IMG/VR virus record: IMGVR_UViG_3300021964_000012
Coordinates: 126,001-190,000 of that record
Reading direction: 5' to 3' (one strand)
Source of the DNA: a virus
Length of the DNA: 64,000 nt
Every line of letters starts with the position of its first letter. Position 1 is the first letter of the stretch. The translations under genes and the position numbers were made by a program. Of the stretch, positions 5,653 to 11,101 are shown one piece after another. The notes beneath the pieces are model-generated. The model was not told the DNA's origin. It did no database searches and worked only from the letters and a program-made list of their open reading frames with translations.

Positions 5653-6375
5653 ATGTCTCGAGCTAAACGAAAAGCAAAATATCAAAGACAACTTCAACAA
5701 GACAACACAATAAACTTCAACCAAGCACTAAAACGCAAGCACATAGAACTTCTTCCGAAGTCGCGTAATCAAGAACAACTTATCTTAAACCTATTAGATC
5801 CACACACGAGTATCACTGTGGCAACCGGACCTGCAGGCACGGGTAAGACTTATCTTGCAATGTTAGCGGCTATAAAAGCATTTAAAGATGGTGCGTGTGA
5901 ACGTATTGTATTGACTCGTCCAGCAGTAGGTGTTGATGATGAAAAGCATGGATTTTTGCCCGGTGACTTGAACAGTAAAATGGAGCCGTGGACAAGACCT
6001 TTGTTTGATGTACTTCGTGAATTCTATACCACAAAAGAAATAGCACGTATGCTAGAAGAACAAACTATTGAAATATCGCCATTGGCTTTTATGAGAGGAC
6101 GTACATTCAAGGATGCCTGGATTATAGCTGATGAAATGCAAAATGCAACGCCTAGTCAAATGAAAATGCTAATGACAAGAATAGGCAAAAATTCAAAAAT
6201 AGTAATCACAGGAGACGTTGAACAAACGGATAGAACCGTACACAATAACGGTTTAATTGATTTATGCAAAAGACTAGAAACTGCTCGCAGTGGACTAGCC
6301 GTTTGTTACATGAGCAATCAGGATATACAAAGACATCCTATTATTGACACAGTATTGGAGATCTACGCAACTTAA
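5653..6375 (+). CDS. phoH: PhoH-like P-loop ATPase
   Basis: 240 residues. Walker A TGPAGTGKTYLAMLAA near residue 57, a Walker B-type IIADEMQNATPSQ near 158, and sensor VITGDVEQTDR near 183 are diagnostic of the PhoH core. PhoH is a common marker gene in marine phages; its role (RNA metabolism or phosphate-related) is unsettled. Strong Shine-Dalgarno AGGAG precedes the ATG. It is the only plus-strand gene in the first 33 kb and converges on the tRNA at 6380. Confidence 0.95.
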   Translation: MSRAKRKAKYQRQLQQDNTINFNQALKRKHIELLPKSRNQEQLILNLLDPHTSITVATGPAGTGKTYLAMLAAIKAFKDGACERIVLTRPAVGVDDEKHGFLPGDLNSKMEPWTRPLFDVLREFYTTKEIARMLEEQTIEISPLAFMRGRTFKDAWIIADEMQNATPSQMKMLMTRIGKNSKIVITGDVEQTDRTVHNNGLIDLCKRLETARSGLAVCYMSNQDIQRHPIIDTVLEIYAT

Positions 6376-6379
6376 AAAT

Positions 6380-6482
6380 TGGCTCTGGGAGAAGGATTCG
6401 AACCTCCAAGGTTAAATATATTGCAGTACATTCAACCATACGGTTAACAGCCGTACGTGTTTACCAATTTCACCATCCCAGA
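6380..6482 (-). tRNA. tRNA with Asn anticodon (GUU) and long variable arm
   Basis: Read on the minus strand. Acceptor arm TCTGGGA/TCCCAGA, then discriminator G73 and encoded CCA. D arm GTG-AAATTGGTAAA-CAC. Anticodon stem TACGG/CCGTA with loop CTGTTAA (anticodon GTT, at 6446-6448). T arm GGAGG-TTCGAAT-CCTTC. The variable region is 31 nt (6408-6438) and folds into an 11-bp stem (two G-U pairs) with loop CTGCAA. U1-A72, G73 and GUU fit tRNA-Asn, but normal tRNA-Asn is class I with a 5-nt variable loop, and the D arm resembles tRNA-Leu. The 5' end lies 6 bases downstream of the synthetase stop at 6489, so the two are probably co-transcribed. Confidence 0.88.
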
Positions 6483-6488
6483 GTATTC

Positions 6489-7319
6489 TTATACTTTGTT
6501 GATCTTTTCTAGTGCAGGAATCATACGTGTCACACCTATGCCTCCGCCTACTCTTTGAAAGAAGTCAAACTCTAAAAACTTTTCTAGTTCTGCTTCGACT
6601 CTTTCCTTGCCAAACAACTTGAATAGTAGTTTACTATAAGCACCATCTGTAATACTATGGAATGTATCACGCATCATATCAACATCACATGAACGTTCTG
6701 CTGATCCAATAGTTTCCATACCACCTAGTATAACGTCCATCTTCTTTGCAGTATTTCCGTCATCGTTTCTGGCCATGTTCCAAAAAGGTGATGTTAGTTC
6801 AGGGAAGTTTGTAATAAGTGTTTGGCCAAACTCTTCTTCCATCTTAAGTTCGTGTTCTGCTTCCATTTCTGTATCAGCACCTAGTCCAAAATGTTGTTGC
6901 CATTCAGCATAGGTCTTTTCTGTAATATTACCAAATCCTAAGTATTCACATAGTTCATACTCCATGGATTTTAAATCATCTACACTGCCTGGCATTTCAA
7001 ATTCAAACATTGGAAATATTATATCATGTCTGCCTGGTATTGCATTAGGCTCTTGTCTATAGGAAGTGGAGACACAAAAAAACCCCTTACTGTCGGGGCT
7101 ACTTAATAATTCATGTTCCAACCACATCTGGCCGGTTTGCGGTAGTGGCCATACTTGGCCTGCGTAATTGTATGTTGCTACGTTGAATGGATCTTCACAT
7201 GCGGCTAGTATGCTCAATCTGTTTTGTGTGTGTACTTCAAGAAAACCTTTTTCCAAAAAAAATGACCTTAAAAGGCCAACTGTGGAAGTGAATTTGCTTG
7301 GGTCTATTAGTTGCGTCAT
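6489..7319 (-). CDS. Minimal class II aminoacyl-tRNA synthetase core (Asp/Asn type)
   Basis: 276 residues matching the catalytic core of class IIb AspRS/AsnRS in order: motif 1-like EKGFLEVHTQ (about 23), LPQTGQMWLE (about 59), motif 2 with SYRQE and GRHDIIFPMFEFEMPG (about 87-110), GGMETIGSAERSCD (about 200), and motif 3 GGGIGVTRM (about 258). The N-terminal OB-fold anticodon-binding domain of AsxRS is absent. AsnA-type asparagine synthetases share this reduced fold and are the main alternative. The adjacent tRNA with Asn anticodon favours a tRNA-linked role. A TATAAATA late octamer lies about 70 bases upstream. Amino-acid specificity cannot be read directly. Confidence 0.8.
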   Translation of the reverse strand: MTQLIDPSKFTSTVGLLRSFFLEKGFLEVHTQNRLSILAACEDPFNVATYNYAGQVWPLPQTGQMWLEHELLSSPDSKGFFCVSTSYRQEPNAIPGRHDIIFPMFEFEMPGSVDDLKSMEYELCEYLGFGNITEKTYAEWQQHFGLGADTEMEAEHELKMEEEFGQTLITNFPELTSPFWNMARNDDGNTAKKMDVILGGMETIGSAERSCDVDMMRDTFHSITDGAYSKLLFKLFGKERVEAELEKFLEFDFFQRVGGGIGVTRMIPALEKINKV

Positions 7320-7487: not shown

Positions 7488-7955
7488 CTAAAACTTACCT
7501 AAAAATCTTGCTATATGATGTACCCATGGCAACAACATTATAGCCATAAATGTGTTAGCACCAGTGTGTGCAAGTGCTATTCGAAGTGTATCGCCTTTGG
7601 GCATGCCATCGCTCACAAAAAAACCGGCTAACCAAATGGTGCCGGTAGTTCCAATGTTTGCGCCTAACACTGCCGCTATGGCTGCAGGCAGAGGCAGTGC
7701 CCCTGAGGCCACCAGTGCAATTATTGCCGTTGTACTTAAACTTGAACTTTGCCAAAGCAGTGTCATTACAATACCACCTAGAAACATATAGATTGGATTG
7801 CCTAAAAAGAAGTTTAAGTGTTCCAAGTTACCCATAGACTTCATACCACCTGAGAACATTTTCAGCCCTATATAAAATACTACCAGTCCAACAAGAGCCG
7901 TCATTATGGGATTGCCTAAGTCCATCCTACATACCTTTTTAATAAGTTTGTTCAT
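7488..7955 (-). CDS. Single-repeat Na+/Pi-cotransporter-like membrane protein
   Basis: 155 residues, about four transmembrane segments. The signature LLWQSSSLSTTAIIALVASG followed by LGANIGTTGT is that of the Na/Pi-cotransporter II family, whose full-length members have two inverted copies of this QSSS repeat in 300-550 residues. Only one copy is present here, so it would have to work as a dimer or modify a host transporter. Phosphate uptake is the inferred role. Start has AAGGAA upstream. Confidence 0.78.
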   Translation of the reverse strand: MNKLIKKVCRMDLGNPIMTALVGLVVFYIGLKMFSGGMKSMGNLEHLNFFLGNPIYMFLGGIVMTLLWQSSSLSTTAIIALVASGALPLPAAIAAVLGANIGTTGTIWLAGFFVSDGMPKGDTLRIALAHTGANTFMAIMLLPWVHHIARFLGKF

Positions 7956-9270: not shown

Positions 9271-9451
9271 TGTTTGCCTCCTCTAAGATTTGTTTTCTTC
9301 CTTCGACACCGATCTGTGAATCCATCATGGTTTTTACATGTTGTAGCATTGCACACGCCATCATCAGTATATCTTCTCTGCTATCACACATCATAATCTG
9401 TTGTTCTATTGGCTTGCATAATTCTCGCATGCGAGCTTTTACATCAGTCAT
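9263..9451 (-). CDS. Hypothetical 62-residue protein
   Basis: Helical, Met-rich (MTDVKARMRELCKPIEQQ start). ATG overlaps the apt stop (ATGA-type junction), with GGAG-like sequence upstream. No domain recognised. Confidence 0.65.
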   Translation of the reverse strand: MTDVKARMRELCKPIEQQIMMCDSREDILMMACAMLQHVKTMMDSQIGVEGRKQILEEANND

Positions 9452-9993
9452 TTTGTTATCTCCTCTTGTGTTATATGCAATTGACTTTTCATGTCATCTG
9501 TATTAAGGTACGCCAAGTTTATAATACTAGTAAAACCAATTACACGGGCTTCTGCTTGTTCGATCAAACGTTTGGTTGCCAACATACTGCCGCCAGTTGC
9601 AACCAAGTCATCTGCTATTAACACTCTATTAGCATGTCCTAACAGTCCTTCTTGTAGCACCAATGTATCTTCACCATACTCAAGTGCATAGGTTTCCTGC
9701 AACAAACTACCTGGATACTTGCTTCCTTTTTTACGCACCATAACAAAAGGCACTCCTATTGTAGCAGCCAACACTGCTCCTACTACAAATCCTCTGCTTT
9801 CAATACCCACTATGTGTGTGATATCACCGTTACGGTTGAATTGATCTTGAATTACAACTGCCATTTCGGCAGCAACTTGATTCCAAATTGGTTGTGCGAA
9901 CAAACTGTTTACATCATAAAAGTTTACACCTTCTACAGGATAATCCTGCACAGTTCGCATGTAATCTGTTGGTTTAGTTTTTACTGAAGACAT
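9448..9993 (-). CDS. apt: Adenine phosphoribosyltransferase
   Basis: About 181 residues. The PRPP-binding signature VLIADDLVATGGSM and the upstream GIESRGFVVG loop are characteristic of Apt, which converts adenine plus PRPP to AMP. Start chosen at MSSVKTKPTDYM because GGGAGGG lies 5 bases upstream; a longer form from 10032 is less likely. The start overlaps the methylase 3' end. Purine salvage from degraded host DNA/RNA is the expected role. Confidence 0.88.
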   Translation of the reverse strand: MSSVKTKPTDYMRTVQDYPVEGVNFYDVNSLFAQPIWNQVAAEMAVVIQDQFNRNGDITHIVGIESRGFVVGAVLAATIGVPFVMVRKKGSKYPGSLLQETYALEYGEDTLVLQEGLLGHANRVLIADDLVATGGSMLATKRLIEQAEARVIGFTSIINLAYLNTDDMKSQLHITQEEITK

Positions 9994-11101
9994 AAACACC
10001 CTCCCATTTTTCTCTACCTTGTTTTCTATCATTGCCTACACCTGGACGTGTGTTAAGCATCATTTTAATTGTTTCTATGTGTTTGAATCCTAGTTTTTCT
10101 GCCGTCTCAATCCATCTTTGTGTAACTTCATAGGGTTCTTTTCTGTCGTAACTTTTATAGTCTGCAATGTTGGTAGCGAAAAGTCCTTCTCTATTGAGTC
10201 CTCTATGTATGTGTTCAATGGTTGGGACAACGTATCCGTCAAACCATTGATCTTCTGTTTTAAATTGTACCATACACTGGGTTTCTTCATCGCTATACTT
10301 TTCCAAGTTAAAATAAGGAGGACTACTAAATGCTAAATCTACATCCTCGGGTTGATATTCTTCGCTAACACTTTGTACTATGGTACTTCTTACGCCTGTT
10401 GCTTCATCAATGATATCATTTAGATAATTAAGATATTTTACAGTTTCAGTATTAGGTTCAACACCTATGTAATCATACTTAAAATTACTACTACCTATTC
10501 CTAAAAGTCTACCACCATAGCCGCAACTGTAATCATACACTCTGCCCCAAAGCACAGGACATAAATGTTCTGCTATTGCTTTAGCATTTTGTGCCTTAAA
10601 GTTAGTAACATTTTCGCCTGTAACTAGTTCAAGTGCAGTTCTTAATTGTGTGGGTCTTAGCAGTCGTTCACCAGTTCTAAATTCAAAACAGATACGTATA
10701 GCACGTTTAAGTTTACGTTCATCATAGAATCTATCTCGCAAACTATTTGAACCTCTACCTTTAGGTTCTGCAGTCATCATGTTAGGAAACAAAAATCGGT
10801 TAATGGTTTGTCCTCGATTGTTTCCAAGTCCAATCTTGCCTTGTTCTACATTGTTATACGATAGTTTGCTGAATTTACGAACTGCTTCTACCAGTCCCTT
10901 GTGTGTAAAATACACAATAGGAACAAGATCAATTGAACGATATATGTCATATACACTTTCGATAGTGCCTTCAGGATCTTGATCATATTGTGCTTTGTCA
11001 AACGCATCAAGTTGGTTATAAACACTTTCATAACCAGTGAACTCATCACTTTCAATTTGTGATGGATCAATATTCCATATTTGATATAAATCTTGAATCA
11101 T
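9974..11101 (-). CDS. DNA methyltransferase-like protein (SPPYF motif)
   Basis: 375 residues. SAM-binding motif I-like YDYSCGYGGRLLGIG near residue 190 and catalytic SPPYF near 270, the (D/N/S)PP(Y/F) motif of amino-methyltransferases (N6-adenine or N4-cytosine). The order motif I then motif IV fits an N6/N4 enzyme. A partner restriction enzyme is not seen, so it is likely an orphan methylase for protection or regulation. The promoter at 11108-11135 sits so close that the mRNA may be leaderless. Confidence 0.78.
   Translation of the reverse strand: MIQDLYQIWNIDPSQIESDEFTGYESVYNQLDAFDKAQYDQDPEGTIESVYDIYRSIDLVPIVYFTHKGLVEAVRKFSKLSYNNVEQGKIGLGNNRGQTINRFLFPNMMTAEPKGRGSNSLRDRFYDERKLKRAIRICFEFRTGERLLRPTQLRTALELVTGENVTNFKAQNAKAIAEHLCPVLWGRVYDYSCGYGGRLLGIGSSNFKYDYIGVEPNTETVKYLNYLNDIIDEATGVRSTIVQSVSEEYQPEDVDLAFSSPPYFNLEKYSDEETQCMVQFKTEDQWFDGYVVPTIEHIHRGLNREGLFATNIADYKSYDRKEPYEVTQRWIETAEKLGFKHIETIKMMLNTRPGVGNDRKQGREKWEGVYVFSKN

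Follow-up and report, generated by a model that had tools for sequence, protein, structure and literature searches.

A phage cassette of an AsnRS-like catalytic core and an adjacent class II tRNA with the asparagine anticodon GUU

The PylRS/tRNA-Pyl pair combines a dedicated class II aminoacyl-tRNA synthetase with a tRNA that has an unusual variable region and whose anticodon is not read. The variable arm of tRNA-Pyl has been described (PMC7609411). In bacteria, the identity of tRNA-Asn is determined by the anticodon and G73, and N6-threonylcarbamoyladenosine at position 37 (t6A37) contributes in yeast (PMC9976931). It has been proposed that altered anticodon loops let phage tRNAs evade anticodon nucleases (PMC10264068), and the cyanophage ‘tRNA ligase’ T4-GC 194 has been reported as a sporadic gene (PMC3037559). 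Here, we analysed a stretch of 64,000 nucleotides (nt), hereafter the window, comprising positions 126001–190000 of the 328,292-bp virus record IMGVR_UViG_3300021964_000012, in which a gene for a class II AspRS/AsnRS-type catalytic core is followed by a tRNA gene with the anticodon GUU and a long variable arm.

The cassette and its distribution among phages

The two genes and their parts are arranged in the window as follows.

6489–7319, (−) strand: class II AspRS/AsnRS-type catalytic core of 276 amino acids (aa) without an anticodon-binding OB domain (Pfam, PHROG_29758, structure model and nearest folds)
6483–6488, (−) strand: 6-nt spacer separating the enzyme's stop codon from the tRNA
6383–6482, (−) strand: tRNA with anticodon GUU, U1-A72, G73 and a long variable arm (Rfam RF00005, minimum free energy (MFE) cloverleaf and covariation in 60 relatives)
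6446–6448, (−) strand: anticodon GUU, constant in the 83 distinct tRNAs of this type that were parsed
6408–6438, (−) strand: variable region of 31 nt, consisting of 1 nt, an 11-bp stem, a 6-nt loop and 2 nt
6380–6382, (−) strand: encoded CCA end, read from the sequence; present in the clade of the window and absent from the cyanophage clade

An earlier, sequence-only reading of this DNA had described a tRNA with these identity elements, variable region and stem, and a 276-residue core lacking the OB fold 6 nt upstream of it. The tRNA was confirmed by the sequence, Rfam and the MFE fold, and the core by the open reading frame (ORF), Pfam, the structure model and its nearest folds.

Hundreds of marine phages carry this two-gene cassette, in which the AsnRS-like core is followed by the hybrid tRNA. 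A tBLASTn search of annotated phages detected the enzyme in the Prochlorococcus phages P-SSM7, P-SSM2 and P-SSM5 (65–67% identity), where it is labelled ‘tRNA ligase’ and has a long tRNA-Asn(gtt) directly 3′ of it, and also in huge uncultured phages (46–48% identity). From IMG/VR scans with the enzyme, each yielding at least about 600 stretches, 160 loci were kept; among the matches listed, the tRNA was found beside the core in 157 of the 159 phage loci of the clade with enough downstream sequence, and it lay within 30 nt of the core in 142 of 148 loci (median gap in 148 relatives, 8 nt). A further scan with the distant LR756508 protein yielded nothing new. The reverse search, starting from the tRNA, gave 114 matches to a DNA pattern of the window's clade, 113 of them with the enzyme directly upstream, and 118 matches to a cyanophage-type pattern, 110 of them with the enzyme directly upstream. 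All nine exceptions had less than 75 nt of contig upstream. Thus, as in PylRS-type orthogonal pairs, the tRNA occurred only with its own enzyme in every assessable match (223/223).

The genes around the cassette differ, with gp23 and a tRNA cluster in P-SSM7, other genes in P-SSM2 and P-SSM5, and in the window a PhoH gene that converges on the cassette from the opposite side. The pair stays intact while its neighbours differ and hence behaves as a single cassette. Chance adjacency was ruled out by the linkage, which held whether the search began from the enzyme or from the tRNA, and the possibility raised in the sequence-only reading that an odd tRNA stands beside the enzyme by chance is excluded by this conservation together with the covariation described below.

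Two loci showed peculiarities at the tRNA site. In L173, downstream of position 5855, just an acceptor-stem remnant (TCCGGGG T CCCCCGGAGCCA) was present, which is either an internal deletion or an assembly artefact. For P-SSM2 (NC_006883.2), RefSeq places the tRNA-Asn at 164094–164179; the true site is 162083–162168, right behind the tRNA ligase gene. Near the cassette in the window, a short Na/Pi-cotransporter-like protein (7488–7955, (−) strand) and an adenine phosphoribosyltransferase-like gene (9448–10032, (−) strand) were observed, and outside the window the same virus record carries three further tRNAs, Thr-TGT, Trp-CCA and Arg-ACG (G000:C1:61906–63340).

A hybrid tRNA and a minimal catalytic core

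The window tRNA scored 56 bits against the Rfam tRNA model (RF00005; gathering score, 29 bits); ARAGORN did not call it in the window. Its MFE fold was a cloverleaf with a fifth arm of 11 bp at −33.1 kcal/mol, compared with −21.5 kcal/mol for shuffled sequences (z = −3.5). GUU, U1-A72 and G73 were constant across all parsed tRNAs, and the stems and the arm length (13–32 nt) varied; the 83-tRNA tally of the anticodon was restricted to GUU, and another parse contained a single non-GUU case, which came from a separate, downstream tRNA in L050. In an alignment of 60 sequences, all five helices were paired in 100% of the sequences, with standard base pairs throughout, and 20 of the 23 pairs counted showed double-sided changes, among them all three that were scored at the base of the variable arm. 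The covariation score over the 23 pairs was 0.68, compared with 0.21 for shuffled and ≤ 0.15 for slid alignments. All 41 distinct variable regions (13–32 nt) formed a stem, unlike the class I loop of 4–5 nt, with a mean MFE of −5.9 kcal/mol (−1.8 kcal/mol when shuffled), and nearly all of them followed the order 1 nt, stem, loop, stem and 2 nt. A misfolded class I tRNA was ruled out by the covariation and the MFE. The tRNA is therefore not class I, and its adjacency to the core is conserved in relatives, these being two of the three points on which the sequence-only reading had staked itself.

The body of this tRNA resembles that of tRNA-Leu. Among the tRNAs of the fetched loci, tRNA-Leu was the nearest set for the D arm, as had been anticipated from the sequence, and the variable-arm geometry agreed with a tRNA-Leu (L183) and disagreed with a tRNA-Ser (L209). 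A Ser-type body was rejected, since both the D arm and the pair of unpaired nt that follows the variable stem are of the tRNA-Leu type. The best cellular matches checked of R1, a covariance model built from these tRNAs, were likewise tRNA-Leu; because R1 also matches ordinary tRNA-Leu, it cannot isolate the hybrid tRNA in cells, yet it shows kinship. The tRNA-Leu hallmarks A73 and a Leu anticodon were replaced by G73 and GUU. Taken together, the arm geometry, D region and model matches indicate that the tRNA is, as far as its sequence tells, a Leu-like body with the acceptor identity and anticodon of tRNA-Asn. Huge-phage relatives outside the tRNA-bearing clade have an ordinary class I tRNA-Asn instead. 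In the huge phages LR756501 and LR756508, which have such a class I tRNA-Asn, odd tRNAs of 91–99 nt were predicted (L372, L373 and L375), one with a four-base anticodon (ttac).

The 276-aa ORF matched Pfam tRNA-synt_2 (E = 4.5e-16) and PHROG_29758, a family of unknown function (8.9e-130). It scored far below every NCBIfam cut-off and is a member of no named family: AsnS (TIGR00457) gave 36.5 bits against a cut-off of 342.6, and the archaeal-type asparagine synthetase (NF005055) gave 18.4 bits against 389, with the cellular cousins likewise far below. Membership among ordinary AsnRS, AspRS or archaeal AsnA was rejected on these scores, and the third point of the sequence-only reading, its alternative of an asparagine-making, AsnA-like enzyme, is likewise not borne out by the scores, which lie well outside those of any known asparagine synthetase. 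In the AlphaFold2 model (mean predicted local distance difference test score, 94.3), the whole chain is catalytic core, with nothing left for an OB domain. The nearest solved folds by Foldseek were AspRS and AsnRS, with TM scores mostly of 0.70–0.78 on the query (Pyrococcus AsnRS 1x54, 0.78) at about 18–20% identity, and the top match of a sequence-profile search of the PDB was AsnRS from Brugia (4e-13).

The enzyme retains class II motifs 2 and 3, and R88, E90, H98, F102, E106, R209 and R265 were invariant in 97 sequences. At the amino acid pocket, the printed alignments gave Gln-Met-Trp-Leu-Glu for the enzyme family (with L67/E68), Gln-Leu-Tyr-Leu-Glu for AsnRS and Gln-Leu-Tyr-Lys-Gln for AspRS. 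The lysine in AspRS binds the side chain of Asp. The Leu-Glu at this place suggests an AsnRS-like pocket, for which Asn is a likelier substrate than Asp.

Proposed charging and decoding, and competing explanations

From the genes and their structure, linkage and covariation, the predicted fold and the pocket residues, we infer that the cassette is probably, although by no means certainly, a self-contained phage synthetase/tRNA pair in which a minimal AsnRS-like core charges the adjacent tRNA with Asn independently of the anticodon. The core would activate asparagine and join it to the tRNA, which would deliver it to AAU and AAC codons independently of the host's AsnRS or GatCAB route. Because the enzyme lacks an OB fold, it should ignore the anticodon, and recognition would most likely use the acceptor end (U1-A72 and G73) and the class II shape, that is, the long variable arm and Leu-like core. 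Class II synthetases approach their tRNAs from the variable-loop side, and a long arm would therefore tend to keep out host AsnRS and AspRS and would suit a compact core. The constancy of GUU, although the enzyme has no domain for it, points to decoding of AAU and AAC. The tRNA was never seen without the enzyme and the enzyme occurs without the tRNA, which is read most simply as a tRNA that needs this enzyme for charging. As for the benefit, host tRNA-Asn might be attacked or limiting in infection, and a foreign body and altered loop could let the phage tRNA escape host nucleases, modification and charging enzymes; alternatively, the advantage might lie in independence from the host's charging route. 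The sequence-only reading had likewise suggested a co-evolved charging pair. The strict linkage (223/223), its retention across genomic contexts and the AsnRS-like pocket bear out the pairing, and its charging step and recognition through the arm are kept here as conditional proposals. The unusual positions 37 and 33 of relatives and the tRNA-less cellular family with the shared active site, both described below, did not feature in that reading.

Several observations weigh against this interpretation. Charging of the tRNA by the enzyme is itself deduced from sequence and predicted structure, and host AsnRS might also charge this tRNA, which carries the two Asn determinants known in bacteria. 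Given the roles of the anticodon, G73 and, in yeast, t6A37 in Asn identity, the altered anticodon loop is notable: position 37 is U in most distinct tRNAs, C in one and A in about ten including that of the window, and position 33 is C in nine. By comparison, position 37 was a purine in 177 of 182 other tRNAs of the fetched loci, and several of the five exceptions appear to be misreadings of the same hybrid tRNA. Decoding may be inefficient with a pyrimidine at position 37. In the enzyme, the conserved proline of motif 1 is replaced in most members, and the protein is very acidic, with a net charge of about −19 in the tRNA clade compared with −9 in the others. Two close phage relatives (L037 and L054, approximately 88% identity) keep an intact core with no tRNA nearby. 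Finally, many cellular relatives of the enzyme adjoin pyrE/pyrF and pyrD (e.g., L200, 3607–6889, and approximately 17 other cellular loci), and nearly all active-site residues compared are identical in these tRNA-less proteins, N92 being the exception.

These cellular relatives (50–60% identity) were detected by a genome scan in Patescibacteria, Midichloriaceae, Dependentiae, Bacteroidota, Pasteurella atlantica and others, and no hybrid-type tRNA was seen at their loci. In a quick tree, the tRNA-bearing enzymes occupied one region nested among tRNA-less ones, with four label changes, at least one of which is a contig-end artefact (L154). Among 12 sampled core-bearing genomes, PyrB/OTCase was not found in nine, PyrC in nine and CarB over the cut-off in 11; all 14 controls of this survey matched, the genomes may be incomplete, and the gene lies in a pyr cluster in just some of the 12. 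In a few cassette phages, a phosphoribosyltransferase resembling the orotate type lies close to the core or immediately upstream of it, or a short protein resembling dihydroorotate dehydrogenase (DHODH) lies beside a phosphoribosyltransferase.

L141, 3174–3716: phage locus with such a gene or genes
L381, 11105–12350: phage locus with such a gene or genes
L313, 1246–1956: phage locus with such a gene or genes

Elsewhere, in about ten Patescibacteria (e.g., L187), genes for a tRNA-dihydrouridine synthase and dnaX flank the core, and in four other loci it follows an argH-like gene. Dihydroorotate is formally asparagine plus CO2 minus water, and we speculate that an Asn-binding, ATP-using enzyme could replace CarAB, PyrB and PyrC. 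The tRNA-less cellular family is possibly a bypass enzyme of early pyrimidine synthesis, and the phage enzyme may descend from, or may still be, a pyrimidine enzyme.

Since the cellular family shares the active site and stands beside pyrimidine genes, the strongest competitor is a metabolic ligase with Asn or Asp as its substrate, in a pyrimidine or asparagine step, with the tRNA as a co-selected tRNA-Asn that the host charges and that is linked to the enzyme through asparagine supply. The adjacency to pyrF/pyrE/pyrD, the frequent failure to find PyrB/OTCase, PyrC and CarB, the phosphoribosyltransferase and DHODH-like proteins of a few cassette phages and the unchanged active site all favour it. 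However, it does not account for the tRNA-Leu body and long arm of the tRNA, for the loss of its usual position 37 or for its never occurring without the enzyme in assessable matches; the pocket has Leu-Glu rather than the lysine of AspRS, and the NF005055 score (18 bits against 389) speaks against a known asparagine synthetase. We regard this explanation as rather unlikely, with perhaps a third of the weight we give to charging by the core. Considerably less probable is a pair whose product, Asn-tRNA or another aminoacyl-tRNA, does not serve decoding and instead donates its amino acid to a non-ribosomal reaction. A pyrimidine at position 37 and the C33 of some members would be poor for decoding and might fit such a donor, but the constancy of GUU, for which the enzyme has no domain, suggests that codons are read with it, and no conserved third gene was seen across the differing contexts of P-SSM7, P-SSM2/5 and the window.

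A tRNA that carries another amino acid and partly reassigns AAY (AAU/AAC) codons is improbable as well, although the enzyme would charge it regardless of the anticodon and SerRS can accept long-arm tRNAs with G73 (PMC7609411). Host tRNA-Asn would compete, the arm geometry with two unpaired nt is of the Leu and not the Ser type, and, in a weak test, AAY positions of the phage enzymes aligned most often with Asn in standard-code cellular homologues, which also tells against the different decoding of AAC/AAU that the sequence-only reading had entertained. Least probable of all is a tRNA-like element behind the gene that serves passively in processing or integration and does not work as a tRNA. 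Although tRNA genes and variable, non-syntenic regions are found together in cyanophage genomes (PMC3037559), the perfect covariation, the constant anticodon and discriminator and the CCA encoded in one clade are difficult to reconcile with such an element.

Returning to the charging pair, a tentative and less probable extension concerns its origin: an anticodon-blind AsnRS/class II tRNA-Asn pair might have arisen in phages from an enzyme of a metabolic family, whose cellular members would replace missing early pyrimidine steps, and a tRNA-Leu body given the Asn acceptor and anticodon, thereby providing private, nuclease-resistant Asn decoding. If the charging pair is real, it would be a new kind of natural enzyme–tRNA pair that needs no anticodon reading. 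As a synthetase/tRNA system that is orthogonal by nature and works on a sense codon, it would then be of use in genetic code work, and it would offer a sharp test of why phages carry tRNAs, namely supply or evasion of tRNA-cutting defences. The hybrid tRNA represents a tRNA identity rebuilt from the body of another tRNA, and our work also draws attention to a family of cellular enzymes encoded next to pyrimidine genes, in genomes mostly without detectable PyrB, PyrC and CarB.

Comparison with known systems

The same pair is already deposited in the cyanophage genomes P-SSM2 and P-SSM7, annotated simply as ‘tRNA ligase’ (T4-GC 194) and ‘tRNA-Asn’. Both parts have thus been in GenBank since those genomes, and neither the pair, nor a class II tRNA-Asn, nor an OB-less AsnRS charging one is described in the open-licence papers searched. 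The phage enzyme shares with AsnRS (AsnS, TIGR00457) the class II fold, motifs 2 and 3, the Leu-Glu pocket signature and the top PDB profile match, whereas it lacks the OB anticodon-binding domain, falls far under the curated cut-off and has low identity to solved structures. With archaeal asparagine synthetase A (AsnS-like, NF005055; PDB 3p8t) it has in common an AsnRS-related core without an anticodon domain and a similar length; in contrast, the phage enzyme is linked to a tRNA, its pocket looks Asn-type and its score is far below.

The tRNA is close to class II tRNA-Leu in the D arm and in a variable arm whose stem is preceded by one nt and followed by two, but it has GUU, U1-A72 and G73 rather than A73. 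It shares anticodon-loop changes with the phage-borne tRNAs proposed to evade nucleases (PMC10264068), which involve neither a dedicated synthetase nor a foreign tRNA body. As a system, the cassette resembles PylRS/tRNA-Pyl in that a class II enzyme stands with a tRNA of its own whose variable region is unusual, and in the anticodon independence proposed here for the phage pair. It differs in that the phage tRNA is unrelated to tRNA-Pyl and bears the sense anticodon GUU, its variable region is long and not minimal, and its enzyme is AsnRS-like.
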